From an uncultured Clostridia bacterium (GTDB taxonomy: Bacteria > Bacillota > Clostridia > Oscillospirales > Acutalibacteraceae), in the NCBI GenBank assembly GCA_947652665.1, contig CANTDZ010000015.1, forward strand, positions 1 to 33,757: a stretch of 33,757 nt of DNA. Direction: 5' to 3'. Within the stretch, counting starts at the first letter, position 1, and every line of letters begins with the position of its first letter. The translations under genes were made by a program, and so were the position numbers. Under the pieces are notes generated by a model, which was not told where the DNA came from, ran no database searches, and saw only the letters and a list, made by a program, of their open reading frames with translations. This document shows positions 84 to 6,333 of this stretch, one piece after another.

Positions 84-114
84 TCCGAGCGGTTGATTTT
101 TCGCTTTTTACCGC

Positions 115-143
115 TTGTTGACCAGATACTGCTGTGCTATACT
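115..143 (+). promoter_or_regulatory. Promoter of the glucarate operon
   Basis: TTGTTG at 115-120 and TATACT at 138-143 are separated by 17 nt, a good sigma-A type arrangement. Transcription would begin near 150, about 50 nt before the garR start codon. An alternative -35, TTGACC at 118-123, leaves only 14 nt and is less likely. Confidence 0.6.
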
Positions 144-197
144 AAAAGCATCCCCAAAAAACCAACACCACCACTTTTTGGAAAGGAATGGTACTAT

Positions 198-1085
198 ATG
201 AAAATCGGTTTTATCGGCCTTGGCATCATGGGTAAGCCCATGGCAAAGAACCTTTTGCAGAAGAGCGAAAATATTGAGCTGTGGGTGAACAACCTCCAGC
301 CCGAGCCCGTAAAAGAACTGGAAGCCCTGGGCGCCAAGGGTGCTGAGCAGGCGGAGATCGGCGAGAACTGCGACGTTGTCTTGACCATGCTGCCCAACAG
401 CCCCCAGGTGAAAGCCGTCATGCTGGGCGAGGGCGGCGTGGCCAGCCACATGAAGCCCGGCTCCGTGTTCATCGACATGAGCTCCATCAACCCCGTAGCT
501 TCTAAAGAAATCGCGGCGGAGCTTGCCAAGAACGGCGTAGAAATGCTGGACGCCCCTGTTTCCGGCGGCGAGCCCAAGGCCATTGACGGCACCTTGAGCT
601 TCATGGTCGGCGGCAAGCAGGAGGTCTTTGACAAATACAAGGGCCTGCTGGAGACCATGGGCGCCTCCGTTGTCCGCTGCGGCGAGGTAGGCGCGGGCAA
701 CACCACAAAGCTTGCCAACCAGATCATCGTGGCCTGCAACATCCAGGCGGTTTCCGAAGCCTTCACCCTGGCCCAGATGGCCGGCGTGGACCCCCAGTTG
801 GTCTTTGAGGCCATCAAGGGCGGCTTGGCCGGTTCTACGGTCATGAACGCCAAGGGCCCCATGATGATCGAGGGCAACGATAAGCCCGGCTTCAAGATCG
901 ACCTGCACATCAAAGACCTGAACAACGCCCTGGACTGCGCCCACACCGTCGGCGCGCCCGTGCCCATGACCGCTCAGGTGCAGGAGATTCTCCAGTGGAT
1001 GCACGCTCATGAGGGCGGCCAGAAGGATCACAGCGCCATCGCCCAGTATTACGAGTACCTGACCGGCATCAAGATCGGCCGCTAA
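198..1085 (+). CDS. garR: Tartronate semialdehyde reductase (2-hydroxy-3-oxopropionate reductase)
   Basis: This 295-residue cytosolic protein belongs to the beta-hydroxyacid dehydrogenase family. It should reduce tartronate semialdehyde to D-glycerate with NAD(P)H. The N-terminus carries the Rossmann motif GFIGLGIMGKPMA, followed by the substrate-binding DAPVSGGEP segment, and the family's catalytic lysine is K171 in GNTTKLANQ. The start at 198 is preceded by GAAAGG at a suitable distance. The frame stays open upstream to 93, but that extension lacks family similarity and covers the promoter. It is the first gene of an operon with a DapA-family lyase, glucarate dehydratase and glycerate kinase, which makes tartronate semialdehyde a much better substrate than the other hydroxyacids handled by this family. 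Confidence 0.9.
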   Translation: MKIGFIGLGIMGKPMAKNLLQKSENIELWVNNLQPEPVKELEALGAKGAEQAEIGENCDVVLTMLPNSPQVKAVMLGEGGVASHMKPGSVFIDMSSINPVASKEIAAELAKNGVEMLDAPVSGGEPKAIDGTLSFMVGGKQEVFDKYKGLLETMGASVVRCGEVGAGNTTKLANQIIVACNIQAVSEAFTLAQMAGVDPQLVFEAIKGGLAGSTVMNAKGPMMIEGNDKPGFKIDLHIKDLNNALDCAHTVGAPVPMTAQVQEILQWMHAHEGGQKDHSAIAQYYEYLTGIKIGR

Positions 1086-1098
1086 GAGGGGCATGGAA

Positions 1099-1998
1099 AT
1101 GAATACGGATTTTATTAAGGGCGTGGTCGTCCCCATCATCACGCCCATTGATGAGGATGAAAAAATCGACGAAGCGCGTCTGCGCCGCCAGATCGATTAT
1201 ATTATAGACGGGGGCTTGGAGGGCATTTTGCTCTTCGGCTCCAATGGCGAGTTCTACCAGGTGGAAGAGGACGAGATGGAACGAGGCCTGAAAATCGCCA
1301 TAGATCAGGCGGCAGGCCGGGTGCCGGTGTACTTTGGCATCGGGGCCATTAACACGAAGAAGTGCGTGCGCCTGGCCAAAATGGCGGCGTCCCACGGGGC
1401 AGCGGCTGTGTCCATCCTACAGCCCATGTTCTTAAAGCCCACTACGGAGGAGCTTTTCCTCCACTTTAAGACCATCGCCGAAGCCATCCCCCAGACCCCG
1501 GTGCTCATTTACAACAACCCGGGCCGGGTGGGCTACGGCCTGACCGCCGCGTTTATCTCGAAGCTGGCCCATGAGGTGGAGAACATCGTGGGCATGAAGG
1601 ACACCTCCGGCGACATGACCCTCACCGAGGAGTGCGTGCGCCTGGGCCGGGATATCGGCTTCAAGGTCTTTGGCGGCAAGGACACCCTGCTGTATGTCAG
1701 CCTGTGCGTGGGTGCCGTGGGCGGCGTCTGCACGGCGGGCAACTTTATGCCCGAGCTCATCGGCGACGTCTACCACAAATACATAAAGGGCGATATCGAT
1801 GGGTCGCGGGAGGCCCAGTTTAAGCTTAACCCCGTGCGCCTTTCCATGGACCCGGCGTCCTTCCCCGTAGCGGCCAAGGACATGGCCAACCTGCGCGGCC
1901 TGGATGCAGGCGTGCCCTATCTGCCGAACCTGCCCACACCGGAAGGCCCGGTGCTGGAAAATATCAAGAAAGCCATGGCGGATGCCGGGCTGCTTTGA
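1099..1998 (+). CDS. DapA-superfamily lyase, probable 5-keto-4-deoxyglucarate aldolase
   Basis: This is a 299-residue (beta/alpha)8 protein of the dihydrodipicolinate synthase / N-acetylneuraminate lyase superfamily. The Schiff-base lysine is K167 in GMKDTSGD and the catalytic tyrosine is Y138 in IYNNPGR. The phosphate/carboxylate-binding segment reads GSNGEF in place of the DapA GTTGE. Members of this superfamily act as 2-keto-3-deoxy sugar-acid aldolases or as the KdgD dehydratase-decarboxylase. Here the flanking genes are GarR and a glycerate kinase, and there is no ketoglutarate semialdehyde dehydrogenase. The parsimonious role is therefore retro-aldol cleavage of 5-keto-4-deoxyglucarate to pyruvate and tartronate semialdehyde, the job done by the unrelated GarL in E. 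coli. That assignment is inference from context. I prefer the ATG at 1099 over the one at 1093 because GAGGGG at 1086-1091 then has a 7 nt spacing. Confidence 0.8.
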
Positions 1999-2014
1999 TT
2001 GGAGGAGAAAAATC

Positions 2015-3352
2015 ATGTCCGTCCCTGTTATTGAAAAAATGGAAGTGTTCCCGGTTGCAGGCCATGACTGCATGGAGCTGAACCTGTCCGGCGCGCACGC
2101 TCCTTATTTTACCCGGAACATCGTTATTCTGACCGATTCCACCGGCACCGAGGGCGTAGGCGAAGTGCCCGGCGGCGAGAAAATCACCGATGCCTTGGAG
2201 CAGGTAAAAGACTTGGTCATCGGCACCCGCATTGCCGACTACAAGCAGACCCTCAACAAAGTGCGTGCCTGGCTGAACGAGAATATTAAAGATGACGTGC
2301 GCGGCCTGCAGACTTTTGACCTGCGCACCGGCGTCCACGTGGTCACCGCCATTGAGGCCCCGCTGTTGGACTTGCTGGGCAAATTCCTGGACGTTCCCGC
2401 CGCGGCTTTGATGGGCGACGGCATCCAGCGGGAGCGGGTGCAGTTCCTTTCGTACCTGTTCTACGTGGGCGACCGCAAAAAGACCGACCTGGAGTACGAA
2501 GAAGAGCCCGATTCGGACTGCGACTGGTACCGCCTGCGCCACGAAGAGGCCCTGACCCCCGAGGCCATCGTAGCCCTGGCCAAGGCCACCCATGAGAAGT
2601 ACGGCTTTGTGGACTTCAAATTAAAGGGCGGCGTGCTGGCCCCCAAGGAAGAAGTCAAGGCCGTGCAGGCCATTAAAGACGCTTTCCCCGACGCCCGCGT
2701 GGACTTAGACCCCAACGGCGCCTGGAGCTTGAAGGAAGCTTTGGAGATTGCCCCCGACCTGAAGAAGTGCCTGGCCTACTGCGAGGACCCCTGCGGCGCC
2801 GAGGACGGCTTCTCCGGCCGCGAGGTCATGGCGGAGTTCAGAAAAGCCACCATGATGCCCACGGCGACCAACATGATCAACACCGACTGGCGGCAGATGT
2901 GCCACACCATTGCCCTGCAAAGCGTGGATATCCCCCTGGCCGACCCCCATTTCTGGACCATGAACGGCTCGGTGCGCGTAGGCCAGCTGTGCAACGATTT
3001 CGGCCTGATGTGGGGCTGCCATTCCAATAACCACTTCGATATTTCTTTGGCTATGGTGGTGCAGTGCGCCGCCGCCATTCCGGGCAAGATGAACGGTATC
3101 GACACCCACTGGATTTGGCAGGAAGGCCGCGAGCGCCTGACAAAAGAGCCCATGCAGATCGTAGACGGCTGCATCGACCTGCCCAAGAAGGGCGGCCTGG
3201 GCATCGAGGTCGACCGCGACCAGGTGATGAAGGCCCACCAGCTTTACTTAGACAAGTGCGCCGGCAAGGGCGCGCGCAACGACGCCGTGGGGATGCAGTA
3301 CCTCATTCCCGGCTGGAAATTTGACAACAAGAAGCCCTGCATGGTACGATAA
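2015..3352 (+). CDS. gudD: Glucarate dehydratase
   Basis: This 445-residue enolase-superfamily enzyme dehydrates D-glucarate (and usually L-idarate) to 5-keto-4-deoxy-D-glucarate. It is nearly the same length as E. coli GudD (446). An N-terminal capping domain is followed by the barrel. The KxK catalytic pair is K202-L-K204 in FKLKGG, metal-binding residues are D232 in LDPNGAW and the glutamate of CEDPCG, and the catalytic histidine is H336 in CHSNNHFD. All sit a constant three residues before their E. coli counterparts. The start at 2015 has GGAGGAG at 2001-2007. It lies 16 nt after the lyase gene and is clearly co-transcribed with it. A hairpin terminator follows directly. Confidence 0.96.
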
Positions 3353-3357
3353 AACCC

Positions 3358-3398
3358 GAGAGGCTGGCAACAAACCCCTGCCAGCCTCTCCTATTTTT
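3358..3398 (+). terminator. Intrinsic terminator inside the glucarate operon
   Basis: A perfect 12-bp stem (3358-3369 with 3379-3390) and a 9-nt loop are followed by CTATTTTTA. It starts six bases after the gudD stop codon and ends just before the glycerate kinase ribosome binding site. No convincing separate promoter lies between them, so it probably acts as a partial terminator that lowers kinase expression relative to the first three genes. Confidence 0.75.
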
Positions 3399-3414
3399 AG
3401 GAGGGATGGATTTT

Positions 3415-4641
3415 ATGAACACGCAGTTACGCAAAGATGCAGACGCTATCATCGCGGCCAGCCTCAAGGCTGTCCTGCCGGACGAGGCCGTGGGGCGGGC
3501 CCTGGCAGGCTACGCGCCCCGGGGCGGGAAAACCCTGCTGGTAGCCGCCGGAAAAGCTGCCTGGCAGATGGCCAGCGCTGCCGTGAAGGTCCTGGGCAAG
3601 GTGGACGGCGGCGTAGTCGTGACGAAATACGACCATGTGAAAGGGGAAATCCCCGGCGTGGACTGCTATGAGGCTGGCCACCCTGTGCCGGATGAAAACA
3701 GCTTTTCCGCCACCCAGAAGGCCCTGGATTTGGTCACGGGCCTGAGCGAACAGGACACGGTTTTGTTCCTGCTTTCGGGCGGCGGCAGCGCGCTGTTTGA
3801 AAAGCCGCTGATCCCCGGCGAAGAACTGCAGGATATCACCAACCAGCTACTGGCCAGCGGCGCGGATATCGTGGAGATGAACACCCTGCGCAAGCGCTTG
3901 AGCGGCGTGAAGGGCGGAAGGTTTGCGCTGGCTTGTGCACCGGCGAAGGTGTTCAGCATTGTCTTAAGCGATATCATCGGCGACCCCTTGGACATGATTG
4001 CCAGCGGCCCCGCCTATCCCGACAGCAGTACCTGCGAAGAGGCCCTGGCCATCGTGGAGAAATACGGGCTGAAGCTGTCGGCTGAGGCTATGAACCTGCT
4101 GGCCCAGGAGACCCCCAAGTCCCTGGATAACGTGGAGACGCAGATCACCGGCAGCGTGCGCGAGCTCTGTGCCGCCGCCGCCAAAGAATGCGAAGCCCTG
4201 GGCTACACCCCCGTCACCCTTACCGACTGCCTCACCTGCGAGGCGCGTGAAGCCGGGAGCTTTTTAGCGAATATTCTCAGGAGCCACGCCGGGCAGGGGA
4301 AGCTGGCGTACATTGCAGGCGGGGAGACCGTCGTGCATCTGACAGGCAAGGGCCTGGGCGGCCGGAACCAGGAATTGGCCCTGGCGGCGGCCCCTCACAT
4401 TGCGGGCCTGGATGCGGCGGTGTTCTCCGTTGGCAGTGACGGCACCGACGGCCCCACCGACGCGGCAGGCGGCTATGTGGACGGCGGTACGGCTTCTGCT
4501 CTGAAAGACGCAGGCCTGGACGTCTTCCACGTCCTGCAGGAAAACGATGCCTACCACGCTCTGCAAAAGGTAGACGGCCTGCTCATCACCGGGCCCACAG
4601 GTACCAACGTCAACGACGTGGCGGTAGGGCTCATCCAATAA
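3415..4641 (+). CDS. Glycerate 2-kinase, MOFRL family
   Basis: This 408-residue protein matches the class of glycerate kinases with an N-terminal DUF4147 domain and a C-terminal MOFRL domain (GckA/TtuD type). The family phosphorylates D-glycerate at position 2, giving 2-phosphoglycerate for lower glycolysis. Visible features are the glycine-rich LLSGGGSAL near residue 120, the GGETVVHL and GGRNQELAL segments that open the MOFRL domain, and the terminal GTNVNDVAVGLI. It completes the pathway from glucarate. Its start is better at 3415 than at 3406, because the AGGAGGG at 3399-3405 would touch the earlier ATG. It is separated from gudD by an intrinsic terminator. Confidence 0.9.
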   Translation: MNTQLRKDADAIIAASLKAVLPDEAVGRALAGYAPRGGKTLLVAAGKAAWQMASAAVKVLGKVDGGVVVTKYDHVKGEIPGVDCYEAGHPVPDENSFSATQKALDLVTGLSEQDTVLFLLSGGGSALFEKPLIPGEELQDITNQLLASGADIVEMNTLRKRLSGVKGGRFALACAPAKVFSIVLSDIIGDPLDMIASGPAYPDSSTCEEALAIVEKYGLKLSAEAMNLLAQETPKSLDNVETQITGSVRELCAAAAKECEALGYTPVTLTDCLTCEAREAGSFLANILRSHAGQGKLAYIAGGETVVHLTGKGLGGRNQELALAAAPHIAGLDAAVFSVGSDGTDGPTDAAGGYVDGGTASALKDAGLDVFHVLQENDAYHALQKVDGLLITGPTGTNVNDVAVGLIQ

Positions 4642-4645
4642 TGGC

Positions 4646-4674
4646 TTGACATTTCTGCCGCTTTTTGCTACACT
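4646..4674 (+). promoter_or_regulatory. Strong promoter of the MFS transporter leader
   Basis: A perfect TTGACA at 4646-4651 and TACACT at 4669-4674 are separated by 17 nt. The predicted start near 4681 leaves a leader of about 120 nt before the transporter start codon. The promoter begins five bases after the glycerate kinase stop codon. Confidence 0.75.
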
Positions 4675-4703
4675 ATAGAAAAATATAAAAGGTTGATTTT
4701 GCT

Positions 4704-4724
4704 ATGATATACACTCGGATTTGA
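4704..4724 (+). CDS. Putative leader peptide MIYTRI upstream of MFS transporter
   Basis: A six-codon ORF, ATG to TGA, encodes M-I-Y-T-R-I. It is preceded by AAAAGG at 4687-4692 (11 nt spacing) and lies inside the leader transcribed from the promoter at 4646-4674. Its codons 2-6 overlap the left arm of the long hairpin at 4709-4798. A ribosome slowed or stalled on this ORF would therefore cover that arm and release the transporter's ribosome binding site. Such short ORFs are typical of ribosome-mediated attenuation of antibiotic resistance and efflux genes (erm, msrD and vmlR leaders are the known precedents). Translation of this particular ORF is inferred from position only. Confidence 0.5.
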   Translation: MIYTRI

Positions 4725-4802
4725 TAAGGATACGGAGCTCACAAGGCTTGGCGGTGCGCCAGGCCCGGTTTCGTATACCTTATCCGATCGGAGTGTATTT
4801 TT
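4709..4802 (+). promoter_or_regulatory. Attenuator hairpin that sequesters the transporter ribosome binding site
   Basis: The outer arm ATACACTC (4709-4716) pairs with GAGTGTAT (4791-4798). A second block GATAAGG (4723-4729) pairs with CCTTATC (4778-4784), then ATAC (4730-4733) with GTAT (4773-4776). The apex is a separate stem, 4745-4753 with 4757-4765. The only ribosome binding site candidate for the transporter, GGAG at 4790-4793, is buried in the right arm, and the stem runs straight into TTTTT (4798-4802). The fold can therefore act as an intrinsic terminator, a translation block, or both. Together with the overlapping hexapeptide ORF it has the layout of a translation-dependent attenuator. 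Confidence 0.7.
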
Positions 4803-5951
4803 ATGTCTAAACGCAATATTTATGCCCTTTGCGCCATTTCGCTGTTGCAAGGGTTGGTTTTTTACGGCCCCATCGCGACCCTGTACCGCAAAGCCGCCGG
4901 GGTCACAATGCTGGAGATCGCGCTGATCGAAAGCGTCTCGCTCATCCTGTCGCTGCTGCTGGAGATGCCCTGGGGCGTCATTGCCGACCGCATCGGCTAC
5001 AAGAATACCATGGTCGTGTGCTGCGGCCTGTTTTTCGTGTCGAAGATTATTTTTTGGCAGGCCGAAAGCTTCGGCGCGTTCCTTTTAGAGCGCGTCCTGC
5101 TGGCAGCCGTCATTTCCGGCCTGTCCGGGGTGGACTCGGCCCTGCTGTACCTTTCCTGTCCCCCGGAACGCCAGCAGAAAACCTTTGCTCTCTACCAGTC
5201 CCTGGGGACGGCGGGTCTGCTTTTGGCGTCCCTGCTGTACTCCCTGTGCTTTGGAGATGACTACCGCCTGTCCGCCTTCTGGACGATGGTGGCCTACGCC
5301 GCCGCCCTGTGCGCCTCCTTTTTCCTGGTAGAGCCGGAGCACGAAGCCCCTTCCCAAGAAGAAAAGGGTTCGCTGGGCCGGGTGATCCTGTCAGTGCTGA
5401 AACGTCCCCGGCTGCTGTTGCTGCTTTTGAGCTTCGGCCTTTTTCAGGAGACAAGGCAGACCGCCACCGTCTTCCTCAACCAGCTGCAATACGAGCGCGC
5501 CGGCATCCCCAGAAGCCTCTTCGGCATCCTGCTGGCCGGGATGCAGCTTTTGGGCTTTTTGGGCCTTTTCTCCCAAAGCGTGACCAGCCGCGTGGGGGAG
5601 GGGCGCTCCTTTATGCTGCTGATGGGCGCGGGGGCGCTGTCCTGCGTGCTGTTGGCGCAGACGTCCTCGCCCGTGCTGTCCGTGCTGGGGGTGGGGCTGC
5701 TGGTGCTGGCCGGGAGCCTGCTTTCACCCTTACAGTCGGTGGTGCAGAACCGCGAAGTGCGCACCGCCTACCGGGCCACCGAGCTCTCCGTTTACGCCAT
5801 GGTGCTCGACGGCATATCGGCCGGGGCCAATGTAGCCTTTGGTCGGGCGGCGGATGTGTCGCTGCCGCTGGCGTTCTGGCTGGGAGCTGGGGCCTGCGGG
5901 GCGGCGTGCGGCCTGTATTTTGGGGCGCAGCAGAGAAAAAAGGAGGACTAA
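4803..5951 (+). CDS. MFS transporter, efflux type
   Basis: This 382-residue membrane protein is a major facilitator superfamily member with about 12 predicted helices. Between helices 2 and 3 it has the motif-A-like segment GVIADRIGYKNTM. The first helix begins right after the short MSKRN start and contains LLQGLVFYGP. Family members of this size export drugs or small metabolites by proton antiport. The substrate cannot be read from sequence. The start overlaps the end of the leader hairpin, and its ribosome binding site (4790-4793) lies inside the stem, so expression is probably inducible. That arrangement is common for antibiotic-induced efflux genes, which supports but does not prove a drug-export role. 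It is a single gene with its own promoter and terminator. Confidence 0.85.
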   Translation: MSKRNIYALCAISLLQGLVFYGPIATLYRKAAGVTMLEIALIESVSLILSLLLEMPWGVIADRIGYKNTMVVCCGLFFVSKIIFWQAESFGAFLLERVLLAAVISGLSGVDSALLYLSCPPERQQKTFALYQSLGTAGLLLASLLYSLCFGDDYRLSAFWTMVAYAAALCASFFLVEPEHEAPSQEEKGSLGRVILSVLKRPRLLLLLLSFGLFQETRQTATVFLNQLQYERAGIPRSLFGILLAGMQLLGFLGLFSQSVTSRVGEGRSFMLLMGAGALSCVLLAQTSSPVLSVLGVGLLVLAGSLLSPLQSVVQNREVRTAYRATELSVYAMVLDGISAGANVAFGRAADVSLPLAFWLGAGACGAACGLYFGAQQRKKED

Positions 5952-5963
5952 TTTCCATATAGT

Positions 5964-5997
5964 GGGCCGTCAGGGGGTTGACGGCCCTTCATTTTGT
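5964..5997 (+). terminator. Intrinsic terminator after the MFS transporter
   Basis: GGGCCGTCA (5964-5972) pairs perfectly with TGACGGCCC (5979-5987) around a 6-nt loop, followed by TTCATTTT. Confidence 0.85.
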
Positions 5998-6011
5998 GTA
6001 TATTCTGAACA

Positions 6012-6077
6012 TTAACACAAAAAATACCTCTATATGTGCTAAAGTAAAGAATCAGGCTGACCTTTAACACGAAAAAA
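6012..6077. promoter_or_regulatory. Repeated TTAACAC-A-tract motif upstream of the XRE gene
   Basis: TTAACACAAAAAA (6012-6024) and TTAACACGAAAAAA (6064-6077) are near-identical direct repeats 52 bp apart. Between them, GTGCTAAA at 6036-6043 is a one-mismatch inverted copy of TTTAACAC. The second copy ends at the XRE gene's ribosome binding site. This suggests operator sites for autoregulation by the adjacent XRE protein. I could not assign a confident -35/-10 pair in this stretch. Confidence 0.4.
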
Positions 6078-6090
6078 GGGGTGCAAATAC

Positions 6091-6333
6091 TTGAAGATCT
6101 ACGAGTATAAAGGCCGGAAGAACCTGTGCGGGCAGCGGGTAAAGGAAGCCCGCGTGCGGCAGAACGTCACCCAGGCCGAGCTTGCCGCCCGGCTGCAGGT
6201 GGCGGGGGTCACTCTGGAGCGGGACAGCGTGAGCCGTATTGAAATGGGGACGCGGTTCGTAACGGATTACGAGCTGACTGTGCTGGCAAAGGTGCTGGAC
6301 GTGTCTATGGAGTGGCTGACCGAGCAGCTGTGA
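6091..6333 (+). CDS. Small XRE-family helix-turn-helix regulator
   Basis: This 80-residue protein is essentially one Cro/C1-type HTH domain. The helix-turn-helix spans roughly residues 28-57 (TQAELAARLQ ... DSVSRIEMGTRFVTD), followed by the usual VLAKVLDVSMEWL helix. It starts with TTG at 6091, supported by AAAAAGGGG just upstream at a proper distance. There is no ligand-binding domain. It lies 26 nt before an MBOAT acyltransferase gene with no terminator between, so the two may share a transcript and the regulator may control that operon and itself through the TTAACAC repeats. The target is inference. Confidence 0.8.
   Translation: MKIYEYKGRKNLCGQRVKEARVRQNVTQAELAARLQVAGVTLERDSVSRIEMGTRFVTDYELTVLAKVLDVSMEWLTEQL

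Follow-up and report, generated by a model that had tools for sequence, protein, structure and literature searches.

A putative ribosome-controlled attenuator with a short leader ORF ahead of an MFS transporter gene of Clostridia

We analyzed a 33,757-nt stretch of DNA from an uncultured Clostridia bacterium of the Acutalibacteraceae (the window) and found that the gene for an uncharacterised MFS transporter is preceded by a putative ribosome-controlled attenuator. A ribosome held at the end of the short leader ORF would very probably break a predicted hairpin between this ORF and the ribosome-binding site (RBS) of the transporter gene and turn on synthesis of the transporter. The features reported by the original prediction (the promoter, the ORF, the hairpin enclosing a GGAG, and the U5 tract) were confirmed as real. 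The leader ORF is complementary to the buried Shine-Dalgarno (SD) sequence, and both the ORF and the pairing are conserved in relatives of the gene. The locus shows the properties of an attenuator, that is, a conserved short ORF, an SD sequestered with covariation, and, in silico only, an SD freed by the ribosome.

The features of the locus are listed in Table 1. A glycerate 2-kinase-like gene (3406-4641) lies upstream, and the −35 hexamer of the transporter promoter begins 5 nt behind it; with 10 of 12 consensus matches and a TG ahead of the −10 box, this is the strong promoter that had been predicted at this place. The transcription start, placed near 4681 from the −10 box, gives a leader of about 122 nt, in agreement with the predicted length of ~120 nt. 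A promoter-like site was found in 39 of the 66 leaders that have at least 95 nt before the ORF, compared to 13.4 expected from shuffles. The transcription unit is probably monocistronic, because a terminator-like hairpin follows the gene. Behind this hairpin lies a gene for a small HTH_3 protein (6091-6333, TTG start), with promoter-like sites nearby at 5978-6006 and 6064-6091. On the other side, the genes at 93-4641 read like a sugar-acid pathway ending in the glycerate 2-kinase, with the MFS unit right behind; we take their translations to be tartronate-semialdehyde-reductase-like, DapA-like, and enolase-superfamily-like proteins.

Table 1. Features of the transporter locus in the window
Feature	Position	Strand	Basis
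MFS-gene promoter, sigma-70-type	4646..4674	+	TTGACA 4646-4651, 17-nt spacer, TACACT 4669-4674
SD-like AAAAGG of leader ORF	4687..4692	+	by eye; modest; 11 nt before ATG
Leader ORF MIYTRI-stop	4704..4724	+	ATG ATA TAC ACT CGG ATT TGA, read directly
Left hairpin arm: ORF codons with the stop codon and the next 15 nt	4709..4739	+	fold, swap test
Apical GC-rich hairpin	4745..4765	+	predicted fold
Right hairpin arm, holding the MFS SD	4767..4798	+	predicted fold
MFS SD GGAG, inside the stem	4790..4793	+	read directly, predicted fold
U5 right behind the stem, before the start codon; possible terminator tract	4798..4802	+	read directly
MFS transporter gene, 382 aa, uncharacterised family	4803..5951	+	MFS_1 96 bits, predicted structure
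Intrinsic-terminator-like hairpin behind the MFS gene	5964..5987	+	terminator scan

The predicted six-codon ORF was read directly from the sequence, and the start of the transporter gene reads GGAG (4790-4793), TGTA, T5 (4798-4802), and ATG (4803). The leader region 4676-4830 has a minimum free energy of −59.9 kcal/mol compared to a mean of −34.9 kcal/mol for its shuffles (sd 3.8, n = 200; z −6.6), none of the 200 shuffles folding as well. In the predicted fold, ORF codons pair with the SD and its spacer (4709-4716/4791-4798, ATACACTC/GAGTGTAT), followed by the stems 4718-4721/4786-4789, 4723-4729/4778-4784, and 4730-4739/4767-4776 and the apical stem 4745-4753/4757-4765; the start region of the leader ORF (4703-4707) is paired with the start of the MFS gene (4801-4805). 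The GGAG in the right arm and the TTTTT into which this arm leads, both part of the original prediction, are seen in sequence and fold. The claim that the ORF codons form the left arm stands in that the ORF pairs within the stem, although the arm continues for 15 nt past the stop codon.

Genome contigs (35 loci), genome samples, and a plasmid collection served as sources of related MFS genes. Of the 83 loci entered, 78 had a placed MFS start (L039, L053, L054, L055, and L091 did not); the addition of 18 loci, one of which lacked a match (L115), gave 95, and removal of four duplicates left 91 distinct loci, including one cut off before its leader (L032). A short ORF ending in x-Pro-(Ile/Thr/Ser/His/Val)-stop (P-x-stop) was found ahead of the MFS gene in 70 of these 91 loci; a further match, in L062, was spurious, the true leader there being MNHVLH-stop. 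In the first set, 61 of the 78 loci had a P-x-stop ORF, with the matches in L002 and L062 being spurious. Among 77 of these 78 loci (L032 was too short), the exact pattern MxxPx-stop occurred in 47 upstream regions vs 0.46 expected from shuffles, and any ORF of 4-9 residues running from ATG to P-x-stop in 53 vs 2.1 expected.

Most of the 70 leader peptides have five residues (56/70), for example MNRPI, MYRPI, MRSPI, MKSPT, MNCPS, MHRPI, and MRNPT. The last residue is Ile in 46, Thr in 15, Ser in four, His in three, and Val in two leaders. All four Pro codons are in use (CCA 27, CCG 25, CCC 13, CCT 5), as are all three stop codons (TGA 33, TAA 31, TAG 6). The ending is kept in longer ORFs of 8 to 13 codons (...SNLNNPT-stop, ...NPYNPT-stop, ...FSNPI-stop). 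The leaders of L112, L113, L104, and L108 are extended at the front to 10-13 codons with the ending kept, and some lengthened leaders have aromatic runs (e.g., MMYLFIFSNPI-stop); these four front-lengthened leaders may differ in their inducer.

The P-x-stop ORF is absent in 21 of the 91 loci, including the cut-off L032 and L062 with its spurious match. A leader is in place with no penultimate Pro in L060, L062, L063, L066, L076, and L097 and, less clearly, in L098, L099, L100, and L065; by reading, L064, L071, L072, L081, L116, and L117 showed no clear leader. In a quick tree of 86 proteins (five truncated proteins were left out), the window (MIYTRI-stop), L002 (MNTRI-stop), and L021 (MSVLR-stop) form one clade (SH-aLRT 95), whose nesting among P-bearing lineages marks the lack of Pro as derived in these three loci. 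At least nine changes between Pro and no-Pro were counted on the tree, with leaderless loci scored as no-Pro. The leader in the window is a Pro-lacking derivative, ending in Arg-Ile-stop, of a widespread leader class. The expectation of a conserved MIYTRI-type ORF was borne out as to a short ORF with a recurring ending in the same place, but MIYTRI itself is not conserved.

Pairing between the ORF and the ribosome-binding arm was assessed in 67 of the 78 loci, which also served for the accessibility, opening-cost, and inner-hairpin analyses. The leader ORF in each was picked by hand from ORF lists. Loci with no assigned leader ORF (L032, L057, L064, L065, L071, L072, L081, L098, L099, and L100) and a duplicate of L046 (L049) were left out, whereas the identical L036 and L037 were both counted, here and in the analysis of Pro-codon pairing. 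RNAalifold on a mixed MAFFT alignment of 19 leaders predicted no pair and hence no general consensus structure, which we read as a register shift between clades; a swap test and a helix count within one clade were then used.

In the swap test, the ORF region of each leader was paired with its own and with every other RBS region. Own pairs had a mean energy of −18.6 kcal/mol and swapped pairs of −9.9 kcal/mol, with none of 20,000 permutations as low; the own partner ranked first in 28 of the 67 leaders and among the top five in 47, and it ranked low in some leaders, such as L080 (55th), L023 (32nd), L047 (30th), L076 (27th), and L029 (25th). For the window, the own pair (−32.8 kcal/mol) ranked 1 of 67 in both directions. 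The difference persisted in 50 leaders with dissimilar RBS arms (−20.1 vs −10.5 kcal/mol; 0/20,000 permutations) and within the window's clade, where own pairs had −32.8, −24.2, and −29.2 kcal/mol and the six swaps −6.4 to −15.6 kcal/mol.

A second group supplied the rows for the helix count, which were 16 helix pieces set by hand; 14 of them differed from one another, and most came from the family of G339. From this count L061, L089, L092, and L118 (letters the same as in L085), L094 (gap in the helix), and L064, L065, L081, L100, L116, and L117 (no alignable helix, by reading) were left out. In this group 94.3% of the cells pair, and two-sided changes were found in five of ten pairs (11 cells; 0/500 shuffles), while sliding by 1-3 columns cut the pairing to 25-53%. 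The helix includes the leader stop codon, with TAA, TGA, and TAG matching the letters of the RBS spacer (one TGA through a G-U pair). The compensatory stem changes that the original prediction had called for were thus found by both approaches, and neither the ORF nor the stem lacks conservation in homologous leaders, either of which would have spoken against it.

To model the stalled ribosome, the mRNA was blocked as it would be by a ribosome whose P site holds the last sense codon. Under this block opening the RBS became cheaper in 66 of the 67 leaders, the mean cost dropping from 15.4 to 7.0 kcal/mol and that of the window from 20.7 to 5.2 kcal/mol; in silico, the predicted opening of the hairpin by a stalled ribosome is reproduced. 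On average, a ribosome that is just initiating on the ORF has almost the same effect on the RBS (mean 7.95 kcal/mol), and the model therefore needs a long ribosome occupancy. The size of the effect is uncertain, since stalling raised the mean unpaired probability of the SD by little, from 0.30 to 0.44, with a rise in 50 of the 67 leaders and none in 17. Under stalling, the window leader still folds into a weak hairpin around its SD.

Several other explanations of the leader were weighed. In 42 of 58 Pro leaders, the probability that the CC of the Pro codon is paired with the RBS region is 0.5 or higher, as would be expected if the hairpin worked without the ORF (as a thermosensor, through an RNA-binding protein, or by simple silencing) and the ORF were incidental to a CC opposite the SD. 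This is very unlikely, given that the frame, the Pro codon, and the stop keep their register with each of the four bases occurring at the third codon position, and that the ending is kept in the longer ORFs and where the pairing has left the Pro codon. In the 16 Pro leaders whose CC pairs with a probability under or about 0.5 (under 0.2 in eight), the stop codon pairs at p ≥ 0.98 in 14, so that pairing on its own does not account for the Pro. The retention of Pro in most leaders of the second group, where its codon is often weakly paired with the RBS region, argues for selection on the peptide or on decoding beyond the stem. Pro and Ile codons recurring at fixed places could also point to a sensor for a shortage of Pro, Ile, or Arg, like biosynthetic attenuators, but the usual leader has a single Pro codon followed by a variable one, the window's clade has lost Pro, and the gene encodes a transporter, with NorA as the nearest solved sequence, and no biosynthetic enzyme, all of which makes such sensing most improbable. 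Hardly credible is a role of the hairpin as a mere terminator of the upstream glycerate 2-kinase gene: its stem begins 68 nt past the end of that gene and has a T5 behind it, but a promoter lies between the two, and three relatives have other neighbours (L056 lies behind an LCP-family gene and L038 and L048 behind tRNA genes).

A weightier alternative, although still an unlikely one, is that the main output is transcription, with the hairpin and U5 acting as an intrinsic terminator that is prevented by the stalled ribosome and with SD masking as a secondary effect. The T5 directly after the stem in the window, the T7 in L002, and the 36 of 67 leaders (2.65 expected) that have a terminator-like hairpin separating the ORF from the SD are in its favor, as is cplR, for which the consulted part of the source reports control of both transcription and translation shown by mutation (PMC10201436). 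However, the terminator scan gave no terminator-like site at the window leader, where its 8-nt loop limit could miss the long stem; the window has no inner terminator-like hairpin between ORF and SD; and at least four consecutive T are present in the 14 nt before the MFS start in only 29 of 91 loci. Transcriptional control is compatible with ribosome-controlled unmasking of the SD and does not exclude it. Part of the leader family probably has such a transcriptional layer; the sole candidate element for it in the window is the U5 behind the outer stem.

Ribosome-controlled unmasking of the SD places the leader close to several known systems. In the consulted part of PMC10201436, cplR has the uORF MRI and an SD inside a terminator stem that ends at the start codon; the window leader shares with cplR, vmlR (MIN), vmlR2, and lsaA a very short uORF and a stem holding the SD of the gene, and MRI ends in Arg-Ile as does MIYTRI. 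The same part of this source gives cplR-type leaders a poly-U and termination at the start codon; in the window, the SD lies in the stem and a T5 is present, and the consensus scan called no terminator there. cplR is drawn there with separate uORF and terminator hairpins, whereas here the ORF and the SD are the two arms of one hairpin. Unlike these leaders, which precede ABC-F genes, the present one would control an MFS transporter, and its family ends in x-Pro-(Ile/Thr)-stop. Because the gene is an MFS transporter (MFS_1, with an MFS fold in the model), the leader would work like an ABC-F leader but is none, and a cplR/vmlR-type ABC-F leader was ruled out. The msrDL peptide (MYLIFM) is unlike that of the window, and msrD is an ABC-F gene whose regulation was shown as transcriptional. 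The ermC gene encodes an rRNA methyltransferase behind a leader (ermCL, 19 codons) longer than the short MFS leader here, and Mef(A) is an MFS pump. MefAL (MTASMRLR) has the +x+ macrolide motif; by reading, no Arg/Lys-x-Arg/Lys was seen in MIYTRI or in the P-x-stop peptides of the relatives, and a +x+ macrolide leader (MefAL, ErmDL) was rejected. In the consulted parts of the respective sources, stalling on ermCL exposes the RBS of the resistance gene ermC, as proposed here (PMC13410324), and mefAL-mefA has leader-peptide attenuation ahead of an efflux gene, like the present locus (PMC10314930).

A search of the window and 39 relative loci with Rfam at the gathering score gave seven matches (tRNAs and one azaaromatic riboswitch), none of them at a leader. 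The azaaromatic (yjdF) riboswitch (L072:2440-2540, minus strand, 88.8 bits) precedes a related MFS gene by ~1 kb, and this gene has no P-x-stop leader of its own. No occurrence of XPX or XPW was seen in the inverse-toeprinting paper PMC6238534, and the words MFS, transporter, and efflux have 0 occurrences in the uORF4u paper PMC10219788. Among papers on attenuation by leaders or uORFs at MFS or efflux genes, judged by titles and abstract starts, none was recognised as a description of this leader, and the peptides MYRPI, MNRPI, MKSPT, MHRPI, MIYTRI, and MRNPT had only unrelated occurrences, judged by title. No counterpart of the leader class was found in Rfam or in the literature searched by titles and abstract starts.

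The best NCBIfam model for the window protein, Cmx/CmrA (NF033135), scored 39.7 bits compared to the 400 needed, and identity as a Cmx/CmrA chloramphenicol exporter was rejected; the eight NCBIfam matches include no Mef model. The match to NorA has an E value of 5e-8. The structure model (pLDDT 89) has an MFS fold, and its fold neighbours are MFS proteins of many functions (NorA, YajR, and LmrP; sugar, vitamin, and organic-anion carriers), so that the fold search does not tell the substrate. A drug-exporter role is plausible.

In an occurrence survey with a 25-sequence alignment (E ≤ 1e-40), the MFS gene was present in 10 of 391 genomes of the window's class and 17 of 398 of its family (its own genome included in both) and in 4/22, 26/146, and 15/397 genomes of three other families, each picked because one member had the gene. 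The sole close copy among 28 other species of the window's genus is that of G006 (69% identity). With these counts and one close copy in the genus, the gene is sporadic and accessory. A stringent leader pattern matched in six of the 146 genomes, in all six at an MFS leader; its sensitivity is low, as 26 of the 146 have the gene. Relatives with organism names are mostly from Lachnospiraceae, Gemmiger, and other Clostridia; their presence also in a Collinsella isolate (L026, leader MNHPI-stop) and a Treponema MAG (L034, MVRCPI-stop) suggests horizontal spread. A protein search scored 7,998 candidates, 944 of which were relatives at E ≤ 1e-20, and among 120 listed relatives two are named (MFS transporter; MFS family permease). 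Matching MFS genes were found in four plasmid records and, as a partial match, in one phage record; a scan of viral contigs with the MFS alignment gave 281 pattern stretches with no relative among them. The Roseburia plasmid copy (L056) has the leader MNRPI-stop. In a distant plasmid-borne copy from Paraclostridium (L057, 28% identity) the leader (L057:1900-1998) looks different, with MHLQD-stop ahead of a hairpin that has its 3' arm GGGGGC just before the start codon; this is possibly an independent attenuator.

In the proposed switch, the leader ORF would be translated and, without an inducer, the ribosome would depart quickly, the hairpin would reform, and the SD would stay buried. An inducer, likely a ribosome-targeting antibiotic, would stall the ribosome at or near the stop codon, presumably at the recurring residues x-Pro-(Ile/Thr)-stop, here Arg-Ile-stop, and so free the GGAG. 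An extra transcriptional block may be added by the U tract here and by the terminator-like hairpin in the leaders of many relatives. The transporter would then export the inducing compound; induction by an antibiotic is what we infer from the logic of the device. With somewhat less than even confidence, we further propose that x-Pro-(Ile/Thr)-stop represents a novel class of arrest sequence that is read during translation termination. In this reading, the leader family has spread within Clostridia and to other groups, its stop codon belongs to the switch helix, and a specific ribosome inhibitor that prevents the final step of translating the five-codon ORF would turn on a dedicated MFS exporter; the sensor of the window's clade would have been retuned to Arg-Ile-stop.

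Leader ORFs are natural readouts of ribosome-inhibitor action in a given codon context, and this family points to an arrest context at or beside the stop codon. Because XPX is named as an erythromycin arrest motif in the consulted part of PMC13410324, erythromycin is a concrete first inducer to try. The Arg-Ile-stop clade offers a built-in natural variant for comparing sensor specificity. Mostly five-codon leaders with a shared ending before an uncharacterised transporter predict an inducible resistance that may be silently carried by commensals.
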